From Pseudobdellovibrionaceae bacterium (GTDB lineage: Bacteria > Bdellovibrionota > Bdellovibrionia > Bdellovibrionales > UBA1609), in contig JAMLIO010000007.1 in assembly GCA_023954155.1 (NCBI GenBank), positions 62,001 to 126,000 of the forward strand: 64,000 nucleotides of DNA, written 5' to 3'. The notes below the pieces were generated by a model. It ran no database searches. It was not told the origin of the DNA and saw only the letters and a program-made list of their open reading frames with translations. The position numbers were made by a program, and so were the translations under genes. Position 1 is the stretch's first letter; each line of letters starts with the position of its first letter. Shown one piece after another: positions 2,589 to 13,935 of the stretch.

Positions 2589-2906
2589 ATGTACAAGCGT
2601 GCTCAGAAACAAATTCCAAAGGAATTTGTGATTGGTGCCCGCCATCCGAGGATAGGAGAACCACTGGTTAAGGTAGAAACCTACTCAATCCAGTGGCGGG
2701 AGCCAAGGGTTGATTTGGCGGAGCTGGCAAAATTACGTTGGATTGAAGGATATTCCCGAAAACAATTAGCTGAGAAATATGGAAAAACCACCGTAGCCAT
2801 CCAGAATTACTTTCAGGAGCTGCGGCGGTTGAGGTTTTGTGTCTCTGGCTTATCTGAAATAGAAAGGGAGGAAATTTTATGGGCATCGAAAAACTCACTC
2901 AAGTAG
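2589..2906 (+). CDS. Small helix-turn-helix protein
   Basis: 105 residues. Residues ~44-80 (LAELAKLRWIEGYSRKQLAE, then KYGKTTVAIQNYFQELRR) look like a helix-turn-helix of the resolvase or sigma-region-4 kind: a helix, a short turn and a recognition helix ending in basic residues. No clear Shine-Dalgarno precedes the ATG, so translation may be coupled to the upstream gene, whose stop is 2 bp away. The end overlaps the next small gene by 28 bp. It could be an island-encoded regulator; the target is unknown. Confidence 0.55.
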   Translation: MYKRAQKQIPKEFVIGARHPRIGEPLVKVETYSIQWREPRVDLAELAKLRWIEGYSRKQLAEKYGKTTVAIQNYFQELRRLRFCVSGLSEIEREEILWASKNSLK

Positions 2907-3055
2907 TTATAGCAATAGTAATAATGGCAGCAGCCACTGGACAGCTTCCAAAGTTGGTACGAGAGGTGCAAATAGCTCAGTATAAGCTCCTCAAAGACTC
3001 GCAAACGTCTAAATGGGGCCGAGCAATGCTATTGCCCGTCCGAACATCGGAATAA
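2879..3055 (+). CDS. 58-residue protein with one hydrophobic helix
   Basis: Read directly: ATG at 2879 to TAA at 3053-3055, preceded by a good ribosome site (GGGAGGAAATTTT). The product starts MGIEKLTQVV, continues with a hydrophobic run (VIAIVIMAAATG) and ends in a basic, polar tail. It overlaps the end of the helix-turn-helix gene, as in compact mobile-element operons. No family recognised; it may be a small membrane protein. Confidence 0.5.
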   Translation: MGIEKLTQVVIAIVIMAAATGQLPKLVREVQIAQYKLLKDSQTSKWGRAMLLPVRTSE

Positions 3056-3144
3056 TCGGATGGATAATTAAAAAATATCAAATAATTCAGGTGGTTAGAT
3101 GACCGCAATGGTCATGCTATAACTGAAGCATCAAGGAGGTCTTA

Positions 3145-3318
3145 ATGAACAAAATAGCTAGAGTACCTAAAAAAGGGGCTGGGCGAAGACTTGCACAGAA
3201 ACTTAAAGAACTTGGACAACAAAAACCACCACAAACACTGATTGATAAAATAAATGGAGATGAAAAGAAAAAAGTGGCAGCACCTACTCCATCTGCTTCA
3301 AAAGACGTGGAGATTTAA
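3145..3318 (+). CDS. 57-residue basic protein, probable antitoxin partner of the PIN protein
   Basis: ATG at 3145 follows a strong AAGGAGG site at 3133-3139. The product is very basic at its N-terminus (MNKIARVPKKGAGRRLAQKL), then Pro/Lys-rich, ending in DVEI. Its TAA stop overlaps the ATG of the PIN-domain gene (TAATG), so the two are translationally coupled. The gene order, small protein then PIN protein, is that of type II antitoxin-toxin operons such as VapBC. I see no known antitoxin DNA-binding fold (AbrB, RHH or Phd), so the antitoxin role is inferred from context only. Confidence 0.55.
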   Translation: MNKIARVPKKGAGRRLAQKLKELGQQKPPQTLIDKINGDEKKKVAAPTPSASKDVEI

Positions 3319-4052
3319 TGCAGATATTAAGAGACCCTGAGTTTTTATCTAAATATTTTCATAGCCTTGAAGCTCAACCAAAATGTCTTGTAGATACAGG
3401 ATTTCTTTATGCACTTGCTTATGCTGATGACCGTTTGTTTGAACAGGCCAATGATCTTCTTGATCTGCTTTCTGATCACGGCGTAATATTTTATATAAAT
3501 GTTATCAGTAGAATGGAGTTTGTTGATCTGCTTTTTCGTAAGCAAGTAACACAAGGGTGCATTGAGCTTTTTAGTAATATTAAACATAATACCCAATACA
3601 AAGGTATTTTCAATTTACTCAAAGATATTCGGGATAAAGACACAGCAGCTCGTAGAAAAAGCCAATCTTATAAACTTGATGAATATCGACTAAAAAAGCT
3701 TCGTGAAAACATTAAGTTCGTTCATGAACTTGGAGGCTGGGAAGATTTTTGCCAGAAATATGTTGGCTCCATGTTACAAAACGAATGGATGATGATTGAA
3801 GAAGACCTTGGACTCAATTTTGTTGAGGTCATGGAAGGAAGCGTTTCCGATGAAATCACTTCACCGCTTCGTTGGAAAGACATGGTTGATCTCATGGGCG
3901 AACATGGTCTTCGAGGTCCTGATGCCATGATTCTACATTTATTTATGAAGAGCAAATTTGAAGTTCTTATCACGACAGATAGCGATTTTAAGTTGTGTCT
4001 GGACAATCAATTTTTTACATCAAGAAACAAAGCTGTTTATTTATTAACTTAA
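3318..4052 (+). CDS. Long PIN-domain protein, probable ribonuclease toxin
   Basis: 244 residues, nearly twice the length of a VapC toxin. The acidic residues expected of a PIN nuclease are in order: D26 in LVDTGFLYAL, E67 in SRMEFVDLL, D202 in RGPDAMILH, and D221/D223 in TTDSDF. Between E67 and D202 there is an insertion of about 100 mostly charged helical residues. PIN domains cut RNA with bound divalent metal. Coupling to the 57-residue gene upstream suggests a toxin-antitoxin pair; the host RNA target cannot be read from sequence. A PIN nuclease used in defence or RNA processing is the alternative. Confidence 0.7.
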   Translation: MQILRDPEFLSKYFHSLEAQPKCLVDTGFLYALAYADDRLFEQANDLLDLLSDHGVIFYINVISRMEFVDLLFRKQVTQGCIELFSNIKHNTQYKGIFNLLKDIRDKDTAARRKSQSYKLDEYRLKKLRENIKFVHELGGWEDFCQKYVGSMLQNEWMMIEEDLGLNFVEVMEGSVSDEITSPLRWKDMVDLMGEHGLRGPDAMILHLFMKSKFEVLITTDSDFKLCLDNQFFTSRNKAVYLLT

Positions 4053-4222
4053 ATACTCGTACTCATACATCTTTCCAAGTTAACGACCAAAGTCCAGAAG
4101 CGGTCTTATATAAATTCAGAATTACGCTCTAAGTGCCGACAAGTCTTATAAAATTATAATTTTTTGTAGTCTTTTTTGTGAATATCCAAAACAAAAGATT
4201 AGGACACACAATAGGAATAAAC

Positions 4223-6682
4223 ATGAACTTTACATGGCAAGATTTTTTTCACGAATTGTTTATCAAGATTGTATCGGAATTCGACTCTAAATCACTAGCC
4301 GAGTTAGTTTACAGAATATTTCCTGAAAATGCCATGATGGACAGAGATGAAAACAACAGAGAGCTGAGATTTGAAGAGTTTGATCCTTGTTCATTTCTCG
4401 CACGTTTTAACCGCCAAGAGCGTACCGATAAAAAAATTGAATACTGTATAAAGGCGAAAGAGATATTGAAATTAACTTCAAATATCCCACAAGATTTCAA
4501 TGGAATTCCTATCTTCAATAATATGCGATGGATGTTCTTCCCTTTCAAAAAAGAACGGAGCAAGTTTGAATATGAAGCTTTGTGGGCATTTTCAAAAAAA
4601 TTGGCAGAAGGGGAAATAACAAGAGAAACGCTAAATAATGCTAGAAAAAGCTTTGGAGCTGGTTTAACTTACCTAACGACCATTGCTTATATCGTATGGC
4701 CTGAAAAATACTTGCCACTCGATGACAGAACAAAGTCGTATTTACAAAAGAGAGCCCCATTTTTTGAAGATATGATTACTTCGGCAAAACGTTCAGAAGA
4801 ACCTTTTGAGCTATACCATTCTATTCTAAAAAAACTACCAGATGTGATTCCAGGAAAAACCTGCGCTGATATAAGTTATTCTGCATATTTAGAAGATATT
4901 AACAAAGATTCAAAACCTTCTGGGCTAACAAATATCATCAAACCAAATGAAATAAGGTATTGGTCTATTGCACCTGGTGAAAATGCTGAATATTGGCATG
5001 AGTGGCAACAAAAAAATCTTATTTCTATTGGTTGGAATGAACTCGGCGATCTATCTAAACAAGATTCACTAGATGAAGTGGGAAAAATATATAAGAAAAA
5101 ATATAAACCTGAAGGGTCTGCAAAGAATAATATTTTAGCAAACTTTGAATTTGCTCACCGACTAAAAATAGGAGATGTGGTTTTTGTCAAAAAAGGTCGA
5201 ACTGAACTTTTGGGAGTAGGCAGAGTTATATCTGATTATAAGTTTGCTGCAACAGAAATCCAATCCCATACTCGGCAAGTAGAATGGATGAGTATTGGTA
5301 CATGGAAATTAAAAAGCGATAAATTTGCAATAAAAACCCTTACTGATATTACGGAGTACGAATCATTCGTTGAAAATCTTCTTAAACTTAGTGGATTAGA
5401 TGATTCTTCAATAATTGGAGACATTGTGAATAAATTAAAAGAACCATCAATGAATAAGAATACTATATTTTGGGGGCCTCCTGGCACTGGAAAGACGTAT
5501 AAACTTCTTCAACTTCAAAATGAATTTGAAGATCAAGAAACAAGTACAGCTTCGGATCAAGTTGTTCAGTGGGTTCAAGATACGGACTGGTGGGATGTTG
5601 TTGCTGCTGCAATGTATGAAATTGGAAAACCAGTTTCTGTGCCTGAATTATTTGAACATGAGTTTATCCAAATTAAGGCCAAGCAGTCCTCAACTAAAAC
5701 ACCTAAAAACACACTTTGGGCAATGCTTCAAACGCATACAGTTCAAGATTCGGTGACAGTTAAATATGGACGCAGGCAAGAGCCTCTCGTTGTAGACAAG
5801 TCGGAAGACTCAAAATGGTTTTTAACGGGAAATTGGGAAGAGCAACTTTCTGATTTAGTTTCTGAAATCCAAAGCCTACGCGATGTAAAAACAGTTAAAC
5901 GTTATGAAATGGTTACATTTCATCAAAGTTATTCGTATGAAGAATTTGTTGAAGGTATAAGACCAGAAATCCAATCCGATGGAAATAGTGTAAGTTATCA
6001 AGTAAAAGATGGTATATTTAAAAAATTATGTCAGAGGGCAATTGAAAATCCAGACAAGAACTATGCAATATTTATTGATGAAATAAACCGTGGAAATATC
6101 TCTAAAATATTCGGTGAACTCATTACCCTTATTGAAGAAGATAAACGTTTAGGTGCTCCACATGAAGTTACGATTACTCTTCCCTATTCTGGGAAAAAGT
6201 TTGGTGTTCCTAATAATTTATACATAATTGGAACCATGAACTCTGTAGATCGTTCTATTGCTCTTGTTGATATGGCTTTACGTCGAAGATTCGATTTTAT
6301 ATCTATTAGACCTGATAGCTCACTTCTTTCAAATAGTGGAATTCATGAGTTTGATGTTCGAAGTATTTTTGAAAAGTTAAATAATAAAATATCCGTAATT
6401 CTTGGGACTGAATACCAAGTTGGTCACAGTTATTTTATGGATAAAAATGTTGGTTCAATAGCTTCTTTTAAAAAAATATGGTTTGGTGGTGTTTTGCCTC
6501 TTTTACAGGAATATCTCTTTGATGACTGGGATAAGCTTGAAGCTTTAGTTGGAAGCTTTGTTAAAAAAACTGAAGTTAAAGATTTAGAAAACCTATCTCT
6601 TCCTAAATTTTCATTTGGCTCTTTCATTGAAAACAATATTGCCGATGAAGTTTTCATAGAGTTTATGAAAAAGTTGGAATAA
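4223..6682 (+). CDS. mcrB: McrB-like AAA+ subunit of a modification-dependent restriction system
   Basis: The ATG at 4223 has AGGA seven bases upstream; the in-frame GTG at 4178 has no site. About 819 residues. The C-terminal half is an McrB-type motor: Walker A GPPGTGKT at ~418, Walker B IFIDEINRGN at ~616, sensor GTMNSVDRS at ~670, then LRRRFDF. McrB hydrolyses GTP to translocate DNA and drives the McrC nuclease. Residues ~245-350 (YWSIAPGENAEYWHEW, later GDVVFVKKGR) look like an EVE/PUA-type reader of modified bases. The first ~200 residues are a further domain I do not recognise. mcrC follows after 1 bp. Confidence 0.9.
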   Translation: MNFTWQDFFHELFIKIVSEFDSKSLAELVYRIFPENAMMDRDENNRELRFEEFDPCSFLARFNRQERTDKKIEYCIKAKEILKLTSNIPQDFNGIPIFNNMRWMFFPFKKERSKFEYEALWAFSKKLAEGEITRETLNNARKSFGAGLTYLTTIAYIVWPEKYLPLDDRTKSYLQKRAPFFEDMITSAKRSEEPFELYHSILKKLPDVIPGKTCADISYSAYLEDINKDSKPSGLTNIIKPNEIRYWSIAPGENAEYWHEWQQKNLISIGWNELGDLSKQDSLDEVGKIYKKKYKPEGSAKNNILANFEFAHRLKIGDVVFVKKGRTELLGVGRVISDYKFAATEIQSHTRQVEWMSIGTWKLKSDKFAIKTLTDITEYESFVENLLKLSGLDDSSIIGDIVNKLKEPSMNKNTIFWGPPGTGKTYKLLQLQNEFEDQETSTASDQVVQWVQDTDWWDVVAAAMYEIGKPVSVPELFEHEFIQIKAKQSSTKTPKNTLWAMLQTHTVQDSVTVKYGRRQEPLVVDKSEDSKWFLTGNWEEQLSDLVSEIQSLRDVKTVKRYEMVTFHQSYSYEEFVEGIRPEIQSDGNSVSYQVKDGIFKKLCQRAIENPDKNYAIFIDEINRGNISKIFGELITLIEEDKRLGAPHEVTITLPYSGKKFGVPNNLYIIGTMNSVDRSIALVDMALRRRFDFISIRPDSSLLSNSGIHEFDVRSIFEKLNNKISVILGTEYQVGHSYFMDKNVGSIASFKKIWFGGVLPLLQEYLFDDWDKLEALVGSFVKKTEVKDLENLSLPKFSFGSFIENNIADEVFIEFMKKLE

Positions 6683-6683
6683 T

Positions 6684-8027
6684 ATGAAATTTCTGAAATT
6701 TTTTGAATATGGAGGATTTGAAAAGTCGCTTGGCGAAGAATCTAATTCTATTTCCGATTTAAACCTTACTGATGCTGAACTTCAATATTTACGTTCCATT
6801 TCTGAGAAAACCATAATTGGAAGTCCTATATTTGAAATAACACAGTCTAAGATCAATGCCACATCTATTGTAGGCGTAATAGCTTTTGATGGGGTTCATA
6901 TTGAGATTTTACCTAAACTTTTGAGAAATAATAGGTCTTCCAATAACAACAATAACTCAAGTATTTTGCAGAATTTAATGTTTATGCTGTCATACACAAA
7001 TGAATTGGATATTTATGATAGCGGCGTGGGATCTCTTTCTGAAAATTCAGATTCCTTTATTGAGGCATATATAGCAATTTTTGCGGACAGACTTTCAAAG
7101 CATCTTATTCGTCACGGCTCTCCAAAAGCTTATGTTGAAAAAAATGAAAATTTAAATACAGTAAAAGGAAAAATTGACTTTGCAAAGCAAAGTACAATAA
7201 ATTGTTTCAACCAATCTCGCATATATTGTAATTATGCCGAGTTTACAGAAGACAATGGACTCTCCAGAGCTTTTAAATTTGTTTCTCAATCGTTAATACA
7301 ACTTACCAAAAGCTCATCGAACACTTCAGTATTAAATAGATGTATCGGTCTTTTAGACGGAGTTAAAGGTGAATATATTACTGGAAGTGAAATAGATCGT
7401 CTTTCAATTGGAAAAAGAAATCAAAACTTTATTGCTCTTATTAACTTAACAAAAATGTTCTTAAAAAAGATGCGACCTGAGTTTTCTGGGCAAAAGAAAA
7501 ACAAGGCATTTACTCTTCTTTTTGATATGAACGAACTTTTTGAAGAGTTCGTATTCATGGTCTTAAAGAGGAACGAATCTTATCTAAATATTAAAGTCCA
7601 AGCGCAAAAGCATAAACGTTTGGTAAATGCAGAAAGAGACTTTTTAAGAGATGGAGAATGGCAAAACAGAGCACTATTTGCCACTTATACTGATATTTCT
7701 ATTACTCTTAGTGATGGACGTATTTTTATTATTGACACAAAATACAAGGTTGTTCATTCAGGCAAAAATCATTATGGAATCAGCAACCAAGATGCCTATC
7801 AAATTCTAGCTTACAGACAGATTCATAAAGACGAAGTAGAGCCATCTGTCGTTCTTCTTTATCCACGATCAAAAGAGGACTTACAGAAAGAATTTAGAAT
7901 AAATGGATCGGAAACAACATTTATGGCATGGACAGTAGATATTTCTGTTGATCTTGGTAAAAACATGAATTTATTAGTAGAAAACTTAAGAAATTTAATT
8001 ACAGTTGTAGAACAAAAAAGCTCTTAG
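6684..8027 (+). CDS. mcrC: McrC-like nuclease subunit
   Basis: 447 residues, right behind mcrB. An N-terminal region (IVGVIAFDGVHIEILPKLL) typical of the McrC/5-methylcytosine system component is followed by a C-terminal PD-(D/E)xK nuclease core: D in YTDISITLSDG, then IIDTKYK, then SNQDAYQILAYRQ. In McrBC, McrC inserts into the McrB ring and supplies the DNA cutting activity and stimulates GTP hydrolysis. The pair should cut phage DNA bearing modified bases recognised by the McrB N-terminus. A low-complexity NNRSSNNNNNSS run at ~73-84 is likely a surface loop. Confidence 0.88.
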   Translation: MKFLKFFEYGGFEKSLGEESNSISDLNLTDAELQYLRSISEKTIIGSPIFEITQSKINATSIVGVIAFDGVHIEILPKLLRNNRSSNNNNNSSILQNLMFMLSYTNELDIYDSGVGSLSENSDSFIEAYIAIFADRLSKHLIRHGSPKAYVEKNENLNTVKGKIDFAKQSTINCFNQSRIYCNYAEFTEDNGLSRAFKFVSQSLIQLTKSSSNTSVLNRCIGLLDGVKGEYITGSEIDRLSIGKRNQNFIALINLTKMFLKKMRPEFSGQKKNKAFTLLFDMNELFEEFVFMVLKRNESYLNIKVQAQKHKRLVNAERDFLRDGEWQNRALFATYTDISITLSDGRIFIIDTKYKVVHSGKNHYGISNQDAYQILAYRQIHKDEVEPSVVLLYPRSKEDLQKEFRINGSETTFMAWTVDISVDLGKNMNLLVENLRNLITVVEQKSS

Positions 8028-8231
8028 TTTCTAAACAAAGATAAACCACGACACTAACATTTTTAAGGGTTTTGTTTTTGTAAAAGCAAAAGAAAACAGT
8101 TAGTTAACCTATTCTTAAATTTTTTATATAAGATATAATGCTCTTGCCTTGACTAAAGACATAGAGGCCCCACATTTACTAAAATTAGTATCGTGAGGGC
8201 GGTAGCTAAATTCTTTTACAGAGGGGGTTTT

Positions 8232-9164
8232 TTGGAGCGTTTTCCATATCTTGCAGGCTTGCTTAGCGAAAATTTACGTAATTCAACAACAAAAGAAGAA
8301 AGGCTTAGGGGTTGGGCTAAACCTCCAAGTCAAACAGAGATAGAAAAGTGTGAGCGAGCAGAACGCATGATTAGGCAAGCCATAGAAGAGGACCCAAAGT
8401 TATCTAAGATGGACATTTCAGTTTATGCAAAAGGTTCATATGCGAATAGGACTAATATTCCTTCGGATAGTGATGTGGACATTGCTGTCGTCGCTAATTA
8501 CTATCATTTTAATGACTATCCCGCTGGCAAAACAGCCTCTGACTTCGGATTTAGTAACACAGGTTATTTATATACTACTTTTAAAGATAACGTCTTGGAG
8601 GCTATTGAAAATAAGTTTGGAAAATCAGAGGTCAGTGCTGGAGAGAAATGTGTGAAGGTGCGCTCAAATAGTTGCAGAGTAGATGCCGATGTTGTACCTC
8701 ACTTCGTACATAAACGTTTTGCATTAGACAAAAGTTCTCAAGAGGGAGTTTCTATTAAAACCGCTGGAACAACCATCTATAACTGGCCCAAGCAGGATTA
8801 TGAAAACGGTGTACAAAAAAACGAAAGAACTGGGAAAAGATATAAAGCCCTTGTAAGGATTATTAAAAATACTCGCTCTAAGATGAGAGAAGAAGGATAT
8901 ACCTCTGCTAAGAATGTAGCTTCATATTTAATTGCTTGCCTTGTTTGGAATGTGCCAGATTATTTTTTTGATGAAGACTCATACGAAAAGATGACCGCAG
9001 ATGCTATTGACTTTCTTATTGAGCAGACATCTGATCTTGCAAACGTAAAGGAATGGGGAGAAGTTAATGAGCTTAAATACTTATTCCGAACTTCTCAGCC
9101 CTGGAAACTAGATGAGGTTCATCAATTTTTAAGAGATGCTAAAACATTCTTGGCGGAAATGTAG
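8232..9164 (+). CDS. CBASS cyclic oligonucleotide synthase (CD-NTase)
   Basis: I favour the TTG at 8232, five bases after GAGGGGG; a GTG at 8193 lies in frame. From 8232 it has 310 residues. The nucleotidyltransferase core is clear: G68-S69 in AKGSYANRT, D81 and D83 in SDSDVDIAVV, and D151 in RVDADVVPHF, the metal-binding carboxylates of cGAS/DncV-like enzymes. Such enzymes make cyclic di- or trinucleotides on phage infection. The effector gene starts one base after its stop, and no Cap2/Cap3 or HORMA/TRIP13 genes are present, so this is a minimal type I CBASS. The nucleotide product and clade cannot be read here. A TATAAT box at 8134-8139 may be its promoter. Confidence 0.85.
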   Translation: MERFPYLAGLLSENLRNSTTKEERLRGWAKPPSQTEIEKCERAERMIRQAIEEDPKLSKMDISVYAKGSYANRTNIPSDSDVDIAVVANYYHFNDYPAGKTASDFGFSNTGYLYTTFKDNVLEAIENKFGKSEVSAGEKCVKVRSNSCRVDADVVPHFVHKRFALDKSSQEGVSIKTAGTTIYNWPKQDYENGVQKNERTGKRYKALVRIIKNTRSKMREEGYTSAKNVASYLIACLVWNVPDYFFDEDSYEKMTADAIDFLIEQTSDLANVKEWGEVNELKYLFRTSQPWKLDEVHQFLRDAKTFLAEM

Positions 9165-9165
9165 T

Positions 9166-9738
9166 ATGAAATACGCTTGGGATGTAAAAATGACGATCGG
9201 TCTTGCCGCGATTGTCTTTATCATTCTTTCCTTTGTTAAAGGGCAAACTTTTCTCGAAGAATTGATAGGAGTAATCTCGCAGACTATTTCTTATACATTC
9301 ATTATTCGTTTAATTTTTATTAAATGGGTTTGGAAATACATACCCTTTTTAGAGATTATACACGGTATACCTTACCTTGAGGGAAAATGGACTGGCACAT
9401 TCGAGTCTACTTGGCGACCAAGCCCTGACGCTCCTTGTGCGACTGGTTCTATAGAAGTTAAAATTACTCAACCAGATATACATTGTATTAAAATTACTCA
9501 AAAGTCTGGAGAGTCATTAAGTCATTCTTATGGAGAAGTTTTTGAAACGCTTGAGGATGGCAGTATCTTTTTAAACTTCTCTTATAAGAATGTTCCAAAC
9601 GCAGATGTTCGCGATCGAAGCCAAATCAATTTTGGTTCCGCGCGGTACCAGCTTGAAAGAGATAGTTCATATAAATTATCAGGAAATTATTGGACCGATA
9701 GAAAAAGCACTGGGAAAATAACAGTCTTAAAAAGTTAG
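9166..9738 (+). CDS. cap15: Cap15-type CBASS membrane effector
   Basis: The ATG at 9166, right behind the CD-NTase stop, gives 190 residues; an earlier ATG at 9136 overlaps the synthase. Two hydrophobic helices (residues ~9-24 and ~36-53) are followed by a beta-rich domain starting LEGKWTGTFE at ~71 and running to the end. This two-helix plus beta-barrel layout is that of Cap15 (SMODS-associated 2TM beta) effectors. In that family the barrel binds the cyclic nucleotide and the helices disrupt the inner membrane, killing the infected cell. The pairing with a CD-NTase supports the call strongly; family membership is from recalled architecture. Confidence 0.8.
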   Translation: MKYAWDVKMTIGLAAIVFIILSFVKGQTFLEELIGVISQTISYTFIIRLIFIKWVWKYIPFLEIIHGIPYLEGKWTGTFESTWRPSPDAPCATGSIEVKITQPDIHCIKITQKSGESLSHSYGEVFETLEDGSIFLNFSYKNVPNADVRDRSQINFGSARYQLERDSSYKLSGNYWTDRKSTGKITVLKS

Positions 9739-9755
9739 TTCATCACTATCTTAAA

Positions 9756-10193
9756 TTATGAAAAATGCCCCGTCCGTCGTCTCACTCTTTCACGGTGCTC
9801 ATAAAACTCTTTGTCTACAACCCATAGATTCAAATTTAAAGCATGCAGTAACGCCATTAGATTCCGAATCCCTGGGTTTCCATCTTTAGCTAACATTCGA
9901 TAGAGGGTGACACGGTTAATCCCTGTAGCTTTTGCCACTTTACTCGGGCCGATTACTTTTACTACAACGGCTAATGCTTTTCTAAAAATAGCTAAATCTT
10001 TAGAAAAATCATGCTCCATACTGAGTTTCAGAAACTCCGTATATACATCATGATCCTTAAGACGAGCTTCAAGAAAAGCTTTGGGAACAGTCCTTGCGGC
10101 ACGTTGTCTTTGCATAAAGACAGCATAGGCTTCGTGAGCTATCTCATAAGGCTTAATAATTTGCTGCAATGTGCGACGGTTTTTCTTATGCAT
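9756..10193 (-). CDS. COG3636-like antitoxin-type helix-turn-helix protein
   Basis: 145 residues, convergent with cap15 (17 bp between stops). Residues ~70-125 (GPSKVAKATGINRVTLYRML, then GNPGIRNLMALLHALNLNL) match the DNA-binding half of COG3636 addiction-module antidotes. The N-terminus is longer and more basic than usual (MHKKNRRTLQQII). No RelE/HigB-type toxin lies next to it. It may be an orphan antitoxin or a regulator of the island. The stop is at 9756 and there is no neighbour sharing its strand. Confidence 0.65.
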   Translation of the reverse strand: MHKKNRRTLQQIIKPYEIAHEAYAVFMQRQRAARTVPKAFLEARLKDHDVYTEFLKLSMEHDFSKDLAIFRKALAVVVKVIGPSKVAKATGINRVTLYRMLAKDGNPGIRNLMALLHALNLNLWVVDKEFYEHRERVRRRTGHFS

Positions 10194-10500
10194 ACGATGT
10201 TACATATATGCAACAATAAATAAGAAGTCATGCACTTTTGTTTCTTAAATTCTTAAGTAAATTCAAAAAGATAAAAATATTTTTCATATTAAAAAAATCT
10301 GATTTTTTGTGGCTTTTTAAAATGTGAAACCACAGTAATTTTGATTTGAGGCTATGAAAAAGACTAGTAGCTGTCGTTTTACCGTATTATGAGAGGGTAT
10401 TTTTTCAAAAAAGGCACCCATTTCCGCTTGCGAAGCTAATTTTGAGATCAAAAAATCTTGGACCGATTTGGTCCATCTATTTTTAAAAAGAGAGTTACCT
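10194..10500. other. AT-rich intergenic region between two island modules
   Basis: About 300 bp with no credible gene. It is strongly AT-rich and holds several A/T tracts and a short inverted repeat TGGACC-GATTT-GGTCCA at 10458-10474, followed by TCTATTTTTAA. It must contain the promoters of the divergent flanking genes, but no clear -35/-10 pair stands out. Confidence 0.4.
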
Positions 10501-10911
10501 ATGGATCAAAGAGCGTGGATTTCCTGCGCCTTCTTCTCTTCAGGTATTGAGTTTATCTATTGGAACATGAAATGGGCTGGAAGTAGTCATCCTCAAAATC
10601 CAGCTTGGGTCATTGTTTCTAGAATTCATTACTTTGTGCTTATAAGTGTCTGCGTATTAGTAGCAGGGTTTCTTCTGCTTTTGTTTATGTCTTTCTTGGG
10701 GCCAACAAAAGAAAAGAAGGATATTGAAGAATCAGCAACTCCAATAGACAGCACGGTTGTGGAAAGAACAAAAGAGCTAGAAGAAGAAACAGAAAAGCAA
10801 AAAGTTGAACAACAAAAACTTGAGGAGCAAAGGAAACAAGAAGTCATCAAAAGAAGGCGTGAGCGGTCCGCAAATGCTGCCGCTCACGATGCCTTAGATG
10901 ACTTTCTATAA
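10501..10911 (+). CDS. Membrane-anchored coiled-coil protein of the island
   Basis: The ATG at 10501 is preferred to an upstream ATG at 10468 because of the AAAGAGAG stretch before it. 136 residues: a polar N-terminus, one strong membrane helix (YFVLISVCVLVAGFLLLLFM, ~48-67), then a long Glu/Lys-rich coiled coil (~85-125) with a basic RRRER patch and an ending of AAHDALDDFL. It sits 18 bp before the replication-relaxation-like gene and is probably in one operon with it. No function recognised; membrane proteins of this sort accompany mobilisation genes. Confidence 0.55.
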   Translation: MDQRAWISCAFFSSGIEFIYWNMKWAGSSHPQNPAWVIVSRIHYFVLISVCVLVAGFLLLLFMSFLGPTKEKKDIEESATPIDSTVVERTKELEEETEKQKVEQQKLEEQRKQEVIKRRRERSANAAAHDALDDFL

Positions 10912-10929
10912 ATTACGGGAGGTCTTTTT

Positions 10930-11766
10930 ATGAGGCTTACCAAAAGAGATTTAGAAATTTTTAAATTGATTTCTAAAACTGCGATTTTAACAACAGTACA
11001 AATAAAAAAAATGATTTTTACAGATGTAGCCACAACAACCGTACTTAGACGACTCAGAAAACTTGAAAAATCAAAATACATTGAACGCATTGAGGGGCTT
11101 CCAAACCATGAACTAGCTTGGGCACTAAATTTAAAGGGTGCAGATACTGTCGGTTATCCAAATCCAAAAAGGAATTTTCATCGTTTATCATTAGTTCATG
11201 ACGTAAAACTATCAGACCTAAGGCTCAAACTTGAAGGTCATGGAATTGCACATTCTTGGATTCCAGAACATGAAATCAGATCAGCTATGGCAAGAAAGCA
11301 TGGTCTTAAGAGAATGCAAAGTCAGTTCGTTCCCGACGGAATTATGAGTGTTAAATACCAAGGAGTAATGGAATCCGTCGTTATTGAATTAGAACTGCAC
11401 TATAAAAACAAAAACCGCTATCAAGATATATTTCAATCTTACATTGGTAAAAATAATATCAAGGCGGTGTGGTATTTTGTCCCTTCAGAGTCCTTGGGGA
11501 AACACTTAGAAAAGCTATGGACTAAATACGTCGGGAATTATGAACCGTGGTTCTTTTGGTCTTTAGTAGATGATGTTTTTGAGAATGGCGGTGATGCTAC
11601 AACTCATTATTTTGATAAAAAGTTTGTGATTGGTGAAATTTTTGAGCCTTTAACACTTGCTCACCCAAGTGGTTTAGGTATGAGCAATTTTTCTGATGAA
11701 AAAACTAAAAATAAAATTGATGTAAATAGCGAAAATCAGGGCGAACTTCCCTTAAAAGCAAGTTAA
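10930..11766 (+). CDS. Replication-relaxation-like protein
   Basis: 278 residues, preceded by a GGGAGG site. The N-terminal ~70 residues form a winged helix (MRLTKRDLEIFKLISKTAIL, then TTTVLRRLRKLEKSKYIERI). The rest has FHRLSLVHDVKLSDLRLKL and VIELELHYKNKNRYQDI, which resemble the Replic_Relax family (PF13814) of mobile elements. These proteins are proposed to act in plasmid replication or relaxase function. The assignment is by overall pattern; no catalytic Tyr/His triad could be identified. The stop is followed after 8 bp by a large hairpin. Confidence 0.6.
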   Translation: MRLTKRDLEIFKLISKTAILTTVQIKKMIFTDVATTTVLRRLRKLEKSKYIERIEGLPNHELAWALNLKGADTVGYPNPKRNFHRLSLVHDVKLSDLRLKLEGHGIAHSWIPEHEIRSAMARKHGLKRMQSQFVPDGIMSVKYQGVMESVVIELELHYKNKNRYQDIFQSYIGKNNIKAVWYFVPSESLGKHLEKLWTKYVGNYEPWFFWSLVDDVFENGGDATTHYFDKKFVIGEIFEPLTLAHPSGLGMSNFSDEKTKNKIDVNSENQGELPLKAS

Positions 11767-11774
11767 GTAGAAAC

Positions 11775-11835
11775 GCCGCCGTAAGCACTGGCCACCCTCC
11801 CTCAACGATGAAGGGTGGCCAGTGCTTACGGCGGC
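11775..11835. repeat. Perfect 24-bp inverted repeat with 13-nt loop
   Basis: The left arm 11775-11798 begins GCCGCCGTAAGC and ends CCACCCT; the right arm 11812-11835 is its exact reverse complement, and the loop is 11799-11811. It is GC-rich in an AT-rich island. There is no T-run on either side (TAAAGTTGG follows on plus, GTTTCTACTT on minus), so it is a weak candidate for an ordinary terminator. Confidence 0.9.
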
Positions 11836-11848
11836 TAAAGTTGGTTTA

Positions 11849-11929
11849 GTGGAGGGCGGGAAGTTCTTAAAAATGATGATTAGGTATGAACAAAGAATTG
11901 AGAGGAAAAAAGAATTAGATAAAAAATAA
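11849..11929 (+). CDS. Possible very small ORF before the recombinase
   Basis: A frame from GTG 11849 to TAA 11927-11929 encodes 26 residues (VEGGKFLKMM, then IRYEQRIERKKELDKK). It can be extended back through the right arm of the 24-bp hairpin to a stop at 11768-11770 without meeting an ATG. A GGAGGGCGGG stretch at 11851-11860 could instead be the ribosome site of an ATG at 11873. Evidence for a real gene is weak. Confidence 0.25.
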   Translation: MEGGKFLKMMIRYEQRIERKKELDKK

Positions 11930-11939
11930 GGGTCGGTAA

Positions 11940-12137
11940 ATGAAAAAGTCATGGGATGTAAAAGACGTTGAGATTATCCCCATGCGTGTATCTATTGAGG
12001 AATATAACCAGAGGCTTGATGAAGCGGCGGAAATGGTCTATCGTTATTTTTGCCAGCTTCTCGAAAATCAAGTCTTGGCTCCTGAAACCCTAAACGTGGA
12101 AGAATACCACAAGCAAAGGACAGGAACCGATGGCTAG
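11940..12137 (+). CDS. Small protein coupled to the serine recombinase
   Basis: 65 residues (MKKSWDVKDVEIIPMRVSIE...), acidic and helical, with no signal peptide. Its stop overlaps the recombinase start by 8 bp (12130-12137), so the two are translationally coupled. Small proteins before large serine recombinases often include directionality or accessory factors, but I do not recognise this one. The ribosome site (GGGTCGG) is weak. Confidence 0.55.
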   Translation: MKKSWDVKDVEIIPMRVSIEEYNQRLDEAAEMVYRYFCQLLENQVLAPETLNVEEYHKQRTGTDG

Positions 12138-13902
12138 TATTAGATTAAATAAAATAAAAAATCAGAATTTTAAAATTGCGCTTTACATTCGAGTCTCAAC
12201 CGAAGAACAGGCGGAAAATCCCGAAGGGTCCATACGTAACCAAGAAGATCGCTTGCTCCAAGCTGTGGCTTACAAAAATATGGGCGGCAACTTTGGCGAG
12301 ATCAAAGGTGTTTATGTAGATGCTGGAATTTCAGCTAAGGATATGAAGCGCCCCAAGCTTCAAGAGTTACTTCGAGCAATAAGAAGTGGCGAGATTGACC
12401 TTGTTATGGTGACAGAACTTTCAAGGCTTTCTCGTAATACAAGAGACTTTATTGAGATGTGGGACATGATGAAACTTCATGGCTGTGGGTTTACAAGTTT
12501 AAGAGAGGATTTTGACACAACCACGGCCGCAGGGGAAATGGTGATTTTACAGTTGATGAATCTGGCGCAGTTCGAGCGGAGGCAGACAAGCGAGCGTGTT
12601 GAGGCCAACATTGCCGCTCGTGCAGCACGAGGTCTTTATAATGGCGGGAGTGTACCTTTAGGCTATAAAACCATTCCTGATAAAGCGGGCTATCTTGAGA
12701 TTGATGAAGAAATGGCAGAAGTTGTAAAGACCGCGTTTGCCGCATTTTTGCGTGAGGGCTCTTTATCAAGAGCTGCCATTTGGCTTAATGACAATGGCTA
12801 TAGGATCAAAAGACATCGTGAAGGTGGAGGAAGATTTAAGCGTGTTGGACATTTCACTGTAGATAACTTGCAAAATATTTTAAGAAACAAAGCCTATATT
12901 GGAATTAAGTCCTACACTTATAGAGGAGAAACTAAAGAATCCAAAGCTGTGTGGCCTGCACTTATTGATAAAAGTACCTTTCATAGAATTGGCAAAATCT
13001 TAGATAAAAATAAAAGTCGATTTAAACCCACAAAGCAAAACCGAAGACCTTATCTTTTATCTGGTATTACTCACTGTCAGACTTGCAAAAGCTTTATGCC
13101 AGGAAAATCTGCAACGGGAAATAGTGGCAAGGTTCCTTATTATGAACACGCTTGGGCAACAAAGCGGGATTCTACATTGAGTAAAAAAATATTTAAATGT
13201 GAGCCACACAGAGTTCCAGCTAAAAAACTTGAACCGTTGGTGATGGAGAAATTTAGGGCTCTTATTTGTAGCCCCAATATGATGAAAGACATACTGAATC
13301 GAGTTCGTAAACTCCATGAAGAAAACCCTCACCGAAAAGATGAAGAGCGTCTAAAGGCAAAAATTTATGGTGTTACCAGTCAAATCGATGGTCTCGCAGA
13401 AAGATTAAGTGAGCTTCCTAAAACTGTGTCCGCAGCTCCCATCTATAAACAGATGGAACGCTTAGAAGACATCAAGCAACGCTATGAAAAAGAATTGGAA
13501 ACCTTAAAAGCGACAGGCAAAACAAGTTTGGACCGAGTTGTAAATTTAAATAAGTTTGAGGAATTTGCAAATCACTACAAAAAGTTTATGACAAAAGAAA
13601 TTGAACCCAACGACTTAAGACAAATAATTAAGAAGTTTATCCATAAAGTGGAAGTAGGAACTGAAGACGTAAAAATCCATTGGATTGTTGACGATGAACA
13701 TTTTGAAAGAGAGCTGGCCCTATTAGGGGCCAGCCTTGGCGTTAAAAAGATAATAGAAGGCCCTCGCAAGAATCCCCCAGAGGGGAGCGTTTCGAGAGTT
13801 TTAAAAGATTCTGATTTTTTTAGCTATGCTGGTTCGCAGAGCTTGACATTTGGTGCGCCTGGAGGGAGTCGAACCCCCACGCCTCGCGGCACTAGATCCT
13901 AA
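12130..13902 (+). CDS. Large serine recombinase (integrase of the island)
   Basis: 590 residues. The resolvase catalytic domain starts at ~15 (KIALYIRVSTEEQ, nucleophile S23) with LVMVTELSRLSRNTRDF as the core. A recombinase domain (~170-300, including GGSVPLGYKTIP) follows. Then comes a zinc-ribbon-like part with CQTC near 316 and a later Cys (FKCEP), then a coiled coil (~390-470). This is the domain order of phage-type large serine integrases, which integrate and excise DNA between short att sites. The last ~17 codons (from 13851) are antisense to tRNA-Leu and the stop falls inside the tRNA anticodon loop, so the C-terminus was donated by the target site. Confidence 0.9.
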   Translation: MASIRLNKIKNQNFKIALYIRVSTEEQAENPEGSIRNQEDRLLQAVAYKNMGGNFGEIKGVYVDAGISAKDMKRPKLQELLRAIRSGEIDLVMVTELSRLSRNTRDFIEMWDMMKLHGCGFTSLREDFDTTTAAGEMVILQLMNLAQFERRQTSERVEANIAARAARGLYNGGSVPLGYKTIPDKAGYLEIDEEMAEVVKTAFAAFLREGSLSRAAIWLNDNGYRIKRHREGGGRFKRVGHFTVDNLQNILRNKAYIGIKSYTYRGETKESKAVWPALIDKSTFHRIGKILDKNKSRFKPTKQNRRPYLLSGITHCQTCKSFMPGKSATGNSGKVPYYEHAWATKRDSTLSKKIFKCEPHRVPAKKLEPLVMEKFRALICSPNMMKDILNRVRKLHEENPHRKDEERLKAKIYGVTSQIDGLAERLSELPKTVSAAPIYKQMERLEDIKQRYEKELETLKATGKTSLDRVVNLNKFEEFANHYKKFMTKEIEPNDLRQIIKKFIHKVEVGTEDVKIHWIVDDEHFERELALLGASLGVKKIIEGPRKNPPEGSVSRVLKDSDFFSYAGSQSLTFGAPGGSRTPTPRGTRS

Positions 13903-13935
13903 GTCTAGCGTGTCTGCCAATTCCACCACAAGCGC
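13851..13935 (-). tRNA. tRNA-Leu(TAG), integration site of the island
   Basis: Reading the minus strand, acceptor arms GCGCTTG and CAGGCGC pair (one G-U), the CCA is encoded, and the T-arm contains GGTTCGACTCC. The anticodon stem CTAGA/TCTAG encloses the loop CTTAGGA with anticodon TAG. The long variable arm gives 85 nt, as for tRNA-Leu. It lies 34 bp after the gcvH stop and may share its transcript. Its 3' end abuts the island. Confidence 0.95.

Follow-up and report, generated by a model that had tools for sequence, protein, structure and literature searches.

The window analyzed here, a stretch of 64,000 nucleotides from a Pseudobdellovibrionaceae bacterium with a genome of 2.44 Mb, carries a recombinase gene at 12130-13902 on the forward strand that encodes 590 aa in its integrated form. 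Resolvase, Recombinase, and zinc-ribbon domains, all above the Pfam cut-off, identify the product as a large serine recombinase, and these domains are followed by a P half-site and a tRNA-encoded tail. The integration target is a tRNA-Leu(TAG) gene at 13851-13935 on the reverse strand, detected by ARAGORN and Rfam. The two genes overlap by 52 nt, made up of a single nucleotide followed by 16 sense codons and a stop codon; the stop (TAA, 13900-13902) overlaps the complement of the anticodon (CTA, 13899-13901). The initial annotation had placed the last ~17 codons antisense to tRNA-Leu with the stop in the anticodon loop, and this arrangement was borne out, both the open reading frame and the tRNA being present. 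The triplet TGG at 13851-13853 (forward strand) is the complement of the tRNA CCA end, and the crossover falls within or adjoining it. The P half-site, GTTCGCAGAGCTTGACATT at 13832-13850 on the forward strand, lies inside the recombinase frame (SQSLTFG) and is conserved in relatives, with GTTC at -19 from TGG.

Comparison with a related tandem array (L056/L178) and other left ends delimited the whole integrated element to 2636-13853, that is, 11,218 bp when counted from the first base beyond the left TGG and with the right TGG included. At the left end, TGG and the P' half-site occupy 2633-2661 on the forward strand, with GAAC at 2658-2661, +26 from TGG. The only sequence common to both element ends is TTGGTGC (7 bp), and a duplicated tRNA 3' end that could represent a second att site was not found in the window or the genome. 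In a search for displaced host flank, the left-flank proteins matched no empty-site locus. The cargo, at 3318-9738 on the forward strand, consists of a PIN-like protein whose match falls short of the Pfam cut-off, an McrB-like AAA protein with McrC, and a CBASS-like cyclase with a Cap15 2TM effector. Within it, 4178-9738 is a compact defence cargo in which the McrB-like AAA protein and McrC are followed by the cyclase, whose gene overlaps that of the effector. A Replic_Relax (replication-relaxation) protein is encoded at 10930-11766 on the forward strand, and the island also encodes an HI1420-type antidote-like protein. No relatives were found among viral contigs, and the phage and plasmid collections contained only distant serine recombinases with <60% identity.

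Homologous recombinases in more than 10 other genomes also run in frame into a tRNA 3' end, always via the CCA end, and the reading of the recombinase into the tRNA is therefore no chance overlap. The named homologues are from Bdellovibrionota MAGs, and most loci are MAG contigs. Their targets are tRNA-Leu (TAG, GAG, CAA, and CAG), tRNA-Ser, tRNA-Ala, and tRNA-Met, with tRNA-Val and tRNA-Phe in L156 and L201. The codon opposite tRNA position 57 is YGA in the recombinase frame, A57 giving a TGA stop and G57 giving CGA (Arg). Most homologues terminate at this T-loop TGA, 22 nt inside the tRNA. In the window, where the T-loop complement lies at 13870-13874 on the forward strand, the corresponding codon (13870-13872) is CGA and not TGA, so the recombinase reads on to the anticodon. 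The shortest tails encoded by the tRNA have ~7 residues and the longest extend past the entire tRNA; both their sequence and their length vary with the target. Because position 57 decides between the T-loop stop and reading on, it is the target that determines the tail, which lacks conservation. The initial annotation had proposed that integration fixes the final residues of the enzyme and had suggested comparing homologous C-termini across tRNA contexts. That comparison revealed no single conserved C-terminus, and the C-termini of integrated enzymes do follow the target tRNA, but the emphasis was misplaced: the conserved part is a helix-turn-helix (HTH) domain of ~90 aa, not the tRNA-encoded residues. 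A tail that differs by target tRNA could in principle mean that these residues themselves tune the integrated enzyme; because bases of the tRNA, position 57 among them, govern the varying length and sequence of the tail, we consider this extremely improbable.

The HTH domain lies at the left end of the element as a fragment of 90 aa (2634-2906 on the forward strand, read here within the ORF at 2589-2906), which is the C-terminal part of the recombinase gene in the circle. It begins exactly at TGGTGCCCGCC, the attachment site, in the recombinase frame, and shares 48% identity over 65 aa with the C-terminal domain of L056. A 58-aa ORF with a hydrophobic N-terminus, read from the sequence at 2879-3055 on the forward strand, overlaps the end of the HTH frame; in its L056 counterpart (L056 6904 on), the ATG overlaps the HTH stop. 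The HTH was present in 27 of 99 relatives by domain search and in 101 of 369 genomes of the phylum by profile search. In about 20 HTH left ends, the fragment begins immediately behind TGG at one and the same codon, although the flanks are unrelated. In about ten elements, HTH and recombinase share a strand but sit at the two opposite ends: the recombinase adjoins the tRNA and the HTH lies at the far end in the window, L152, L155, L156, L158, L183, L191, and L201, and in L153 and L154 the contig ends before any tRNA is visible. The HTH was absent from the available upstream DNA of ~10 more distant recombinase loci. The domain gave weak matches to many HTH families, the best being sigma-70 region 4, and its predicted structure contains four helices (pLDDT 72); a PDB fold search with this model returned no significant match, and the AlphaFold model of the recombinase-HTH fusion was of poor quality. 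An alignment mixing full-length and HTH-only rows was set aside because the HTH rows were misplaced. In L160, L163, L164, and L207, a small serine recombinase gene (~240-280 aa frame) is located ~130-400 bp after the HTH on the same strand.

Among the 22 HTH left ends that are unfused to a recombinase, 15 have no in-frame upstream ATG, GTG, or TTG, and no conserved internal start codon was found within the HTH fragments. The remaining seven, including the window, have an in-frame upstream start; in the window this is an ATG located 15 codons before the HTH, from which an HTH protein of its own could be made. These seven ends would suit a plain overlap, in which the recombinase merely ends in the tRNA with a harmless tail and the HTH at the left end is a small gene in its own right that lies at att by chance. 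The 15 ends lacking such a start speak against this explanation, and a single gene accords with the reading frame, with where the start codon lies at att, and with the natural fusions described below; we regard the plain overlap as very unlikely. The chance of a random 89-codon open frame at the base composition of the window is 0.0017. When counted after the att codons, dN/dS of the HTH was ~0.1-0.4, with dN and dS of 0.09 and 0.82 for the window and L155, 0.20 and 1.12 for the window and L160, and 0.05 and 0.32 for L152 and L153. By these sequence comparisons, the HTH domain is under purifying selection. Purifying selection together with a missing start codon implies that the HTH is expressed in another DNA state, and the fusions show which.

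Since the HTH lies at the far end and starts at att in the recombinase frame, the circle is predicted to encode a fusion protein. In silico joining of the window element ends produced one open frame of 664 aa, recombinase-HTH. The expectation that excision changes the C-terminus was thus right, and the predicted change is large; the free form would end in WASKNSLK in the window element and in VRKEDF in L056. The L056 contig, from a related MAG (the larger piece is L178, G303:C38), has two P half-sites. One copy is followed by tRNA-Leu, and the other, located directly after a recombinase, continues in frame into ~85 HTH-like residues. This inner junction of the tandem array has both attP halves and an intact natural fusion of 636 aa, in which Pfam detected the same large-serine-recombinase domain order as in the window protein. 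An inner tandem junction is a rebuilt attP, and the L056 recombinase gene is accordingly whole there. It is the only intact natural fusion among the loci compared; in the other fused frames (L151, L179, L198/L180, and L182), the upstream recombinase is broken or partial. Inner junctions of tandem arrays resembling attP, with GTTC at -19, GAAC at +26, and recombinase and HTH in one frame, were observed in L056/L178, L151, and L198. L200 also has an attP-like junction, followed by an HTH-like frame that runs into masked bases. A sequenced circle, sought as a terminal overlap in the fusion-carrying contigs, was not found. In the three-element tandem array of L151 (5213-5710, reverse; G125:C35), the frame of a truncated recombinase goes on beyond att and ends in another C-terminal extension, likewise HTH-like, and tails other than this HTH family may therefore occur on such recombinases. 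Segments between P' and a tRNA in L056 (6656-11030) and L195 (1659-3883) have no recombinase of their own and may be non-autonomous passengers relying on one supplied in trans.

We propose that the recombinase gene has a split-gene architecture, with attP inside the gene and the HTH part cut off by integration; on these sequences, we hold this to be highly probable. In the proposed scheme, attP would lie between a complete recombinase part (codons 1 to ~575) and the C-terminal HTH (~90 codons), and in the circle or at an inner tandem junction the gene would be whole. Upon integration at the tRNA CCA end, the catalytic part would stay at one end and gain a short tRNA-derived tail, and the HTH fragment would remain at the opposite end, in many cases with no start codon. 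Because the recombinase gene contains attP, its C-terminus changes with the integration state, and the HTH would give the free-state enzyme a DNA-binding capacity absent from the integrated enzyme. Gene splitting thus looks like a built-in marker of the free versus the integrated element.

What the HTH does in the free state can be read in several ways. Tentatively, the HTH tail may mark the free state, binding element DNA and regulating or guiding the recombinase until it is shed once integrated. By analogy with the archaeal suicidal integrases (PMC8371274), the HTH could instead be needed for activity, so that integration would inactivate the enzyme and lock the element until a helper with a whole gene arrives. 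The location of att inside the gene agrees with such inactivation, and both the tandem arrays and the elements that have no recombinase close by point to help in trans; however, the integrated fragment keeps all canonical large-serine-recombinase domains, and we find this reading rather doubtful. A further reading, which we likewise think somewhat unlikely, is that the tail shifts the free enzyme towards integration and that excision is left to the enzyme lacking it, the split replacing or assisting a directionality factor. It agrees with the exact correspondence between the two enzyme forms and the integration state, but an HTH found on a tyrosine integrase hints at a role apart from serine-recombinase chemistry. 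In this case (L181 102-1757, reverse; G309:C54), the frame of a tyrosine integrase (Pfam Phage_integrase) reads through into a member of the present HTH family, with TGG and GAAC at +26 kept. This one contig suggests that the HTH module may have moved between unrelated integrase classes, and it favours a role independent of how serine recombinases work, perhaps DNA tethering or autoregulation.

The split-gene architecture is accompanied by a regular attachment-site geometry. GTTC at -19 from TGG was observed at 16 of 17 right ends and at none of 26 tRNAs without a recombinase, GAAC at +26 from TGG at 22 of 24 HTH-bearing ends, and the T-loop GAAC at +21 in 16 of 17 tRNAs, these rows being related and the counts therefore not independent. 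GTTC and the GAAC at +26 form an inverted pair, so attP has inverted outer motifs, and in the tRNA half of attB, the half covered by this comparison, the motif is 5 bp nearer the centre. In LI integrase, the zinc-domain motif is likewise offset by 5 bp between attP and attB (PMC3783163). We infer that the tRNA T-loop may act as the B' recognition motif, which in the window would be GAAC at 13871-13874, overlapping the CGA codon. Such a motif may account for the variety of tRNAs that the relatives target (Leu, Ser, Ala, Met, Val, and Phe).

Possible traces of related elements were also observed. The window genome has a second P half-site plus ~50 nt, 95% alike, beside tRNA-Leu(GAG) (G000:C2:67877-68038; L002 1502-1663), with neither recombinase nor HTH nearby. 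That the 70 bp shared between the window element and this tRNA-Leu(GAG) flank are a native tRNA trailer was rejected, as recombinase-free tRNAs have no P motif; the site is likely what remains of a related element that used a different Leu isoacceptor. L039 (3009-3107; G026:C7) contains a decayed HTH left end ~1 kb from tRNA-Leu(TAG) and gcvH, and the flank of that tRNA has no P half. It is a trace of a lost element at the integration site used in the window.

Several known systems resemble this element in part. Archaeal suicidal tyrosine integrases (SSV1, pTN3, and pT26-2) also have att inside the integrase gene, which integration splits, but they are tyrosine recombinases (Phage_integr_3) whose split parts the catalytic portion from the N-terminus, whereas the window recombinase is a bacterial (Bdellovibrionota) serine type whose catalytic part stays complete and from which a C-terminal HTH is removed. 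The large serine integrases (LI/A118, phiC31, and Bxb1) have in common with it the Resolvase, Recombinase, and zinc-ribbon domains and an outer motif displaced by 5 bp in attB relative to attP (PMC3783163); the present family differs in targeting tRNA genes and in the extra C-terminal HTH across attP. In mycobacteriophage integration-dependent immunity, attP likewise lies within a gene whose product differs between the free and integrated forms, but that gene encodes a repressor, the integrase is of the tyrosine type, and the free form has an ssrA-like tag; in the window element, it is the recombinase gene that holds attP, and the predicted free form has the HTH at its end with no tag. Islander-type tRNA islands also integrate at tRNA 3' ends, leave the tRNA gene intact, and carry defence cargo, but the window element has no displaced tRNA fragment, its ends having only the 7-bp sequence in common.

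Serine integrases were not known to target tRNA genes according to the 2015 Islander paper (PMC4383910), and self-disrupting recombinases were exclusive to archaea according to a 2021 review (PMC8371274); subscription journals were outside our search, and later exceptions to either statement are possible. The recombinase family described here runs counter to both. With about even confidence, we suggest that serine-recombinase islands throughout the phylum use the universal T-loop GTTCRA as the attB zinc-domain motif and register integration by shedding a DNA-binding domain of the recombinase, the enzyme thus differing between free and integrated elements, and the HTH perhaps having been exchanged onto a tyrosine integrase. 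Gene splitting is a directly testable state switch, and, if the T-loop reading is true, the natural target of the recombinase would contain a sequence found in nearly every tRNA gene.
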